This document shows positions 2,583-3,118 of a stretch of 15,568 nt of DNA, piece by piece. The stretch is taken from positions 1 through 15,568 of the forward strand of contig JALGVQ010000085.1 in assembly GCA_025774615.1 (NCBI GenBank). The letters run 5' to 3'. The notes beneath the pieces were generated by a model, which was not told the origin of the DNA, searched no databases, and was given only the letters and a program-made list of their open reading frames with translations. Each line of letters opens with the position of its first letter. Position 1 is the stretch's first letter. Both the position numbers and the translations under genes were made by a program. The stretch comes from a bacterium (lineage in GTDB: Bacteria > Blakebacterota > Blakebacteria > Blakebacterales > Blakebacteraceae).

Positions 2583-2599
2583 AACGATCAGTGATCGTT
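2583..2599. terminator. Short inverted repeat between convergent genes, possible weak bidirectional terminator
   Basis: AACGATCA and TGATCGTT flank a single G, giving a six-base-pair stem with a five-base loop. It lies between the end of the oxidoreductase gene and the redoxin gene and overlaps the redoxin stop codon (TGA at 2588-2590). There is no strong U-tract on either side, so termination is only a suggestion from its position. Confidence 0.25.
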
Positions 2600-3118
2600 G
2601 TTGAGTTCCTCCACGATGGCGTCCTTGATCATTGTTTCCTGGCCATCCCGGAATCCGCGCCAGTGCTGCTTTATCCTGCCGTCCTTCCCGATGAGGAAGC
2701 TGTTCGGGTATCCTGAGGTGTTGAATTTGGACTCCACGAACGCTCTGTTTGCTTCCGCAAATGTAAATGTCAGTCCGTGCTCTTCAATAAATGTATCTGC
2801 ACCTTCGCGGTCGTCATTGATCTCTACTGCAAGAATCTGTAGATCTTCGTGATCTTTCAGTTCTCCATACATCGTCTGAACGTGTGGCAACTCCACACGA
2901 CAGCCACCTCACGTGGGGAACCAGAACACGATCAACGTTACCTTTTTGTCCAGATCCTCATGCGTGATGGTCTTACCGTCATATGTGGTCAGACTGAAAT
3001 CCTCGACTTTGGCTCCGATCTCACCGATCTCCTGGGGTGACGTTCCCATACCCGTCATGAAGAAGAGAGCGGGGAGGAGGATCAGAGCAAAGGCAGGAAG
3101 GAGGCGATTCCGTTTCAT
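2588..3118 (-). CDS. TlpA/thioredoxin-like selenoprotein (in-frame TGA read as selenocysteine)
   Basis: Reading through one TGA (2909-2911) gives a continuous 176-residue protein. It has a basic then hydrophobic N-terminus (1-25, signal peptide or membrane anchor), then a complete TlpA/AhpC-TSA redoxin fold. The active site reads FWFPT-U-GGCRVELPH, with U70 and Cys73, aligning with the FW..WCxPCR.E.P motif of TlpA proteins so that U replaces the first (nucleophilic) Cys. The conserved cis-Pro loop follows as SGYPNSFLIGKDGRI (Pro138). The protein is expected to act as a thiol-disulfide or peroxide-type redoxin outside the cytoplasmic membrane. Both halves are in the same frame, the family is complete across the TGA, and a SECIS-like hairpin follows it. 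The start ATG has GAGGT six bases upstream (3125-3129). The alternative is a nonsense mutation; the exact position at the catalytic residue argues against it. Selenocysteine machinery is not in this window. Confidence 0.85.
2876..2903 (-). promoter_or_regulatory. Candidate bacterial SECIS hairpin downstream of the in-frame TGA
   Basis: On the coding strand, CGTGTGG (2899-2893), loop AGTTG (2892-2888) and CCACACG (2887-2881) form a perfect seven-base-pair stem. Below it, CTG (2903-2901) pairs with CAG (2878-2876) across a U/UU internal loop. The apical loop begins 16 nt after the TGA and holds a G-U near its 5' side. This spacing, small loop and G/U content fit what is known of bacterial SECIS elements recognised by SelB. 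The hairpin lies inside the coding sequence, as expected for bacteria. Function is inferred from shape and position. Confidence 0.7.

Follow-up and report, generated by a model that had tools for sequence, protein, structure and literature searches.

A redoxin gene read through an in-frame TGA as a probable U-x-x-C selenoprotein of the thioredoxin fold

The window, by which we mean the whole 15,568-nucleotide stretch of DNA analysed here, carries on its minus strand a gene (2588..3118) that starts with an ATG at 3118, ends with a terminal TGA at 2590-2588 and contains exactly one internal TGA in frame, at codon 70 (2909..2911). Reading this TGA as selenocysteine (Sec, U) yields a protein of 176 residues including Sec, with the translation MKRNRLLPAFALILLPALFFMTGMG...VTLIVFWFPT-U-GGCRVELPHVQ...NTSGYPNSFLIGKDGRIKQHW...NNDH-stop which can also be written MKRNRLLPAFALILLPALFFMTGMGTSPQEIGEIGAKVEDFSLTTYDGKTITHEDLDKKVTLIVFWFPT-U-GGCRVELPHVQ...NTSGYPNSFLIGKDGRIKQHW...NNDH. 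Standard ORF calling breaks this gene into two pieces, 3118-2909 (69 aa, from ATG) and 2896-2588 (102 aa, from GTG). A sequence-only reading of the DNA, which gave no strand, had proposed that the two fragments form one redoxin joined over the TGA. We found this to hold on the minus strand: the joined protein scores 61.1 bits with Pfam AhpC-TSA, where the cut-off is 26, and 50.3 bits with Redoxin, where it is 26.6, over a single stretch, residues 34-155, that spans the TGA, and the TGA column is kept in relatives. The plus strand of 2588-3118 was also considered as a gene and was rejected, as no gene lies there.

The genes around the redoxin, named from reading their translations, follow the order NhaC-type antiporter, histidine kinase, redoxin, Gfo/Idh-type oxidoreductase, cysteine-synthase-like gene and PA14-type gene, and the same order surrounds the redoxin in genome G001. 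The adjoining PAS histidine kinase with a receiver domain (5435-3263, minus strand) is broken up by shifts of frame and is missing a segment found in its intact 765-residue G001 homologue, damage that reflects either assembly errors or gene decay. The cysteine-synthase-like protein (1441-269, minus strand) has a Cys-rich C-terminal tail that is kept in G001.

Within the (W)CxxC motif, here FWFPT-U-GGC, Sec70 stands in the column of the nucleophilic Cys, and this column holds Cys in 2l5o, 4nmu, the Cys paralogues and the Cys homologues. The resolving Cys73 (2900..2902, minus strand), second residue of the U-x-x-C pair, is invariant in six aligned relatives, and cis-Pro138 in SGYP (2705..2707, minus strand), read from the translation, is invariant in the three nearest sequences. 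The TGA on the first Cys column of WCxxC, the retained second Cys and the cis-Pro (Y-P138) are seen in the translation just as the sequence-only reading had placed them. The N-terminal segment (3044..3118, minus strand) is signal-like, with KRNR followed by hydrophobic residues up to about position 25 and without a lipobox Cys; model confidence there is low, as expected for a signal peptide. From this segment it can fairly be inferred that the redoxin is exported.

We identified five relatives from other MAGs that share the TGA at the Sec70 column, with identities in the alignment of 74% (L038), 59% (L039), 40% (L040), 41% (L041) and 27% (L043). The scan for relatives was seeded with short peptides including GCRVELPH, so that this peptide is shared by construction; the seeding imposed neither the TGA nor the codons. 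The homologue alignment suggested by the sequence-only reading thus shows TGA, and neither TGC nor TGT, in the relatives at this column, and they have no stops elsewhere. A further hit (L042, from a Saprospiraceae MAG) has the Cys form FWATWCGPC, and in that genome no selB match exceeds the cut-off. Comparison of the source gene with that of G001 gave pN 0.124 and pS 0.59 upstream of the TGA and pN 0.169 and pS 0.79 downstream; nonsynonymous change is far lower than synonymous change, and selection is purifying, on either side of the TGA. Because the TGA falls at the same column in five relatives and both sides are under purifying selection, its position in the frame is more than chance. No relatives of the redoxin were found in viral contigs, and the plasmid collection yielded only Cys-type or unannotated TlpA/ResA homologues with <43% identity. 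An exact-motif pattern allowing TGA, TGY or TGG at the Sec column found only the L043 locus among 396 genomes of the L043 group, and the GGCRVELPH form is therefore uncommon in that group.

Downstream of the TGA we observe a bacterial SECIS hairpin, CGUGUGG-AGUUG-CCACACG (2881..2899, minus strand), that starts 9 nt past the TGA and has a 7-bp stem and a 5-nt loop, AGUUG (2888..2892, minus strand). Published rules for bacterial SECIS elements (bSECIS) require a loop of 3-9 nt, a stem of 4-16 bp and a G in the first two loop positions (PMC13188914), as well as a spacing of 16-37 nt and an MFE of at most -7.5 kcal/mol (PMC13188914). The hairpin at 2881..2899 lies within all of these constraints, with a UGA-to-loop spacing of 16 nt, G at loop position 2 and -9.9 kcal/mol when folded alone. 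Nearly the same hairpin is present in the five TGA relatives. An Rfam scan of the window gave no match at the gathering threshold, and the case for a SECIS is therefore built on the published rules together with covariation. Folding energy was dropped as proof of a SECIS since it is not significant: the energy is unremarkable, with a z of -1.16, and among 3000 synonymous recodings 903 folded as well as the native hairpin region. A perfect stem of at least 7 pairs with a G-bearing loop in range arose in 560 of 20000 recodings.

The comparative evidence for the hairpin is much stronger than the energy. The hairpin codons CGT GTG GAG TTG CCA CAC are the same in six sequences, one TTA excepted, and synonymous sites outside the hairpin in those six are near saturation. 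Among these codons CGT, TTG and CCA are minor in the window, and the chance product for the conserved hairpin codons under window codon usage is 8.4e-5. Across 16 homologues of the wider family, AGUU of the loop is invariant and the 6-bp stem core pairs in 99% of cells. At stem pair 15-29, U-A is replaced by C-G in 3 sequences, and at stem pair 17-27 either A-U or C-G replaces U-A in 7, giving two-sided changes in 10 cells over two stem pairs; these counts are of sequences and not of independent events. Three stem pairs never vary in the 16. None of 500 shuffles reached the observed covariation score, and slid alignments scored lower. Additionally, in L073-L075 RVELPH becomes RVELPR through a change of CAC to CGC that is matched by CGT to CGC in the stem partner.

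The source genome encodes selA (509 bits), selB (321 bits) and selD (351 bits), and a tRNA-Sec (66 bits) that ARAGORN reports as tRNA-SeC with anticodon tca. The selD gene (L016, G000:C273) is a selenoprotein gene too, with its own in-frame TGA in CAG-U-ASK. The sequence-only reading had proposed a search for the sel genes in which absence of selB/selC was to count against selenocysteine; all four components were present. TGA is the terminal stop in nine other genes of the window and is thus an ordinary stop that has not been reassigned. This genome has 16 AhpC-TSA (PF00578) matches, nine of which contain exactly one TGA. In all nine, this gene and eight further loci (L056, L057, L060, L061, L065, L068, L069 and L070), the TGA is at the catalytic column, which gives strong independent support for the Sec reading. 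The motifs are FTFV-U (two, of the peroxiredoxin type), WU-PPC, WU-GPC (two), PTU-GGC (this gene), TU-PPF and TU-PPY (two deiodinase-like proteins) and TU-KEC; one of the FTFV-U proteins scores 258 bits to PrxU, just under the cut-off of 270, on a partial sequence. The bacterium appears to employ selenium in over half of the AhpC-TSA-family enzymes found in its genome.

The TGA could instead be a true stop created by a point change from TGC or TGT, through gene decay or sequencing error, leaving the two halves as a pseudogene. The frameshifted histidine kinase next to the redoxin (5435-3263), with its lost stretch, fits such an account because it indicates that the contig has damaged genes or errors. 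However, the same-column TGA recurs in five independent assemblies and at the equivalent column of eight other redoxins of the genome, both halves are under purifying selection and the hairpin covaries; the relatives' TGA and the selection in practice refute this account, which we regard as very improbable. Even less probability attaches to two separate proteins, a short exported peptide ending at the TGA and a second protein from GTG 2896. The ORF caller gives exactly this split, but it would divide the modelled thioredoxin fold after strand 60-66 and ahead of helix 71-87, and the second piece would be without residues 70-73. Its GTG is also a Val codon inside the SECIS that is GAG or GCG in homologues, so that the start codon is not conserved. 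A changed genetic code with TGA read as Trp or Gly genome-wide would likewise leave the frame open, yet the 10 genes of the window that were checked, among them this one, all end in TGA, the internal TGA aligns to Cys and not to Trp or Gly, and the Sec machinery is complete; we give this reading next to no weight. Because machinery, code, the relatives' TGA and the SECIS agree as four lines of evidence, the gene very probably encodes one selenoprotein with Sec at the active-site nucleophile position, Sec insertion at codon 70 being what we infer from sequence. The U-x-x-C selenoprotein of the sequence-only reading is thus borne out by the Sec machinery, the TGA in relatives and the covarying SECIS.

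The main open rival accepts Sec and differs from our reading in the reaction only: the protein would be a selenol peroxidase (Prx-like) and not a disulfide reductase. The best Pfam match is AhpC-TSA, Sec suits peroxide chemistry and the genome contains Sec peroxiredoxins. On the other side, DsbE-like proteins, ResA and 2l5o are closest in fold and sequence, the motif is UxxC where Sec peroxiredoxins have TxxU, and the protein appears exported; we consider a peroxidase unlikely, though a real alternative. The fold model (mean pLDDT 82.7) is of the thioredoxin type and places residue 70 immediately ahead of helix 71-87; among solved structures, a DsbE-like protein and ResA resemble it most. Because of these fold matches and the signal-like N terminus, we favor an exported thiol-disulfide reductase of the TlpA/ResA/DsbE group in which Sec70-Gly-Gly-Cys73 forms the redox pair, with Sec as nucleophile and Cys73 resolving; the disulfide-reductase role is probable. 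The departure from WCxPC, with Thr69 for the usual Trp and Gly72 for the usual Pro, counts against this assignment.

In the mechanism that we propose for the selenium-dependent reductase, SelB carrying Sec-tRNA-Sec would bind the hairpin downstream of the UGA and insert Sec, and translation would end after residue 69 if selenium or SelB were lacking. Outside the cytoplasm, the selenolate would attack the disulfide, or another oxidised thiol, of a partner, and the mixed selenide-sulfide would be resolved by Cys73. A DsbD-type membrane reductase could then restore the reduced Sec-Cys pair. The source genome encodes one DsbD with a C-terminal WCVAC domain, and our guess is that it may act as the reductant donor for the redoxin.

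UxxC selenoproteins named 'Prx-like' and 'thiol-disulfide isomerase-like' were reported in 2005 (PMC1088965), and a 2026 table includes UxxC redoxin-family and TlpA-related selenoproteins (PMC13188914). The change from Cys to Sec has been described as a general trend (PMC1794560). The protein described here resembles the UxxC 'Redoxin family protein' and 'Thiol-disulfide isomerase-like protein' in its thioredoxin fold, in having Sec for the first cysteine of CxxC and in its downstream bSECIS (PMC1088965; PMC13188914), and it is an added example of these already catalogued UxxC redoxin-type selenoproteins. The view that it represents a rare form for the TlpA group did not stand: published lists already include UxxC selenoproteins of the thiol-disulfide isomerase-like, redoxin-family and TlpA-related kinds (PMC1088965; PMC13188914), and the clade of this gene alone holds 15 sampled Sec members. 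Two NCBIfam (seleno)protein models cover the same domain and score it far lower than their cut-offs, namely redoxin_TUGYCR (NF053656; 26 bits, cut-off 100) and WAxxUGC_long (NF041054; 29.8 bits, cut-off 300), whose motif contrasts with FWFPTUGGC here. The best NCBIfam match is ResA (NF002854), at 78.8 bits against a cut-off of 170. Other members of the clade also lie far under the redoxin_TUGYCR and WAxxUGC_long cut-offs and below that of ResA. The best PDB sequence match is 2l5o (1.1e-19), a putative thioredoxin of Neisseria meningitidis in the Cys form with FWFPSCPGC at its active site. Fold, domain boundaries, the signal-like N terminus and the cis-Pro are like those of Cys-form ResA, TlpA and DsbE; unlike these proteins, it has Sec for Cys and PTUGGC in place of WCxPC. 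The window showed no cytochrome c maturation context.

When 247 genomes of the L041 group were searched with a profile, 44 of them gave matches, and 13 of the matches have one TGA; this wider clade was surfaced by the profile search only and not by the exact-motif pattern. In a tree of 42 redoxins, the gene falls inside a 15-sequence clade (support 99/96) that is all Sec among the sampled sequences, and Sec also occurs outside this clade in several separate lines. The clade motif is mostly PT-U-x-x-C-x-x-E-(L/F)-P, with ST for PT in L039, and the clade, whose likeness to published UxxC redoxins is drawn from their descriptions, may already be among them. Further UxxC redoxins with an in-frame TGA are L035 (G001:C491, minus strand), with AWMUGACR and an 8-bp hairpin, and L025 (G003:C47), with FWGVWUGSCR and a hairpin that is weak by simple scan. 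We found selB over the cut-off in 9 of 11 TGA-form genomes versus 7 of 13 Cys-form genomes tested, and because this difference is weak, selB presence was rejected as a marker that would sharply divide Sec from Cys genomes. It is below the cut-off in 2 of the 11 Acidobacteriota-group TGA-form genomes and also in G005 and G007; the genomes lacking it may be incomplete MAGs.

The gene's group is possibly an unnamed subfamily. We tentatively suggest, with less than even confidence, a Sec-only redoxin clade PTUxxCxxE(L/F)P that spans at least two bacterial groups and in which SECIS and protein have evolved together. Under this reading, Val, Glu or Ala five residues past Sec goes with the Pro codon CCA, CCT or CCG, and His-to-Arg nine residues past Sec goes with the change of the stem partner from CGT to CGC. 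If this is true and no Cys member exists, Sec would not be exchangeable with Cys in this enzyme. In the covarying SECIS of the all-Sec clade an RNA signal is seen to shape amino-acid choice, and the clade offers a natural set of sequences in which to ask why selenium is retained in some enzymes of the thioredoxin fold. With this gene the thiol-redox selenoproteome gains a well-supported case from a GTDB-type phylum sampled by four genomes only, in a genome where nine of 16 AhpC-TSA-family redoxins, including two peroxiredoxin-like and two deiodinase-like proteins, appear to use selenium.

Elsewhere in the window, on the minus strand and by translation only, we observed an RND/MMPL-type transporter (14229-10765) with an apparent C-terminal fusion to a domain of the outer-membrane-lipoprotein-sorting type, and two small overlapping genes (9497-8626) that resemble a toxin-antitoxin pair, the second of them DUF5615-like.
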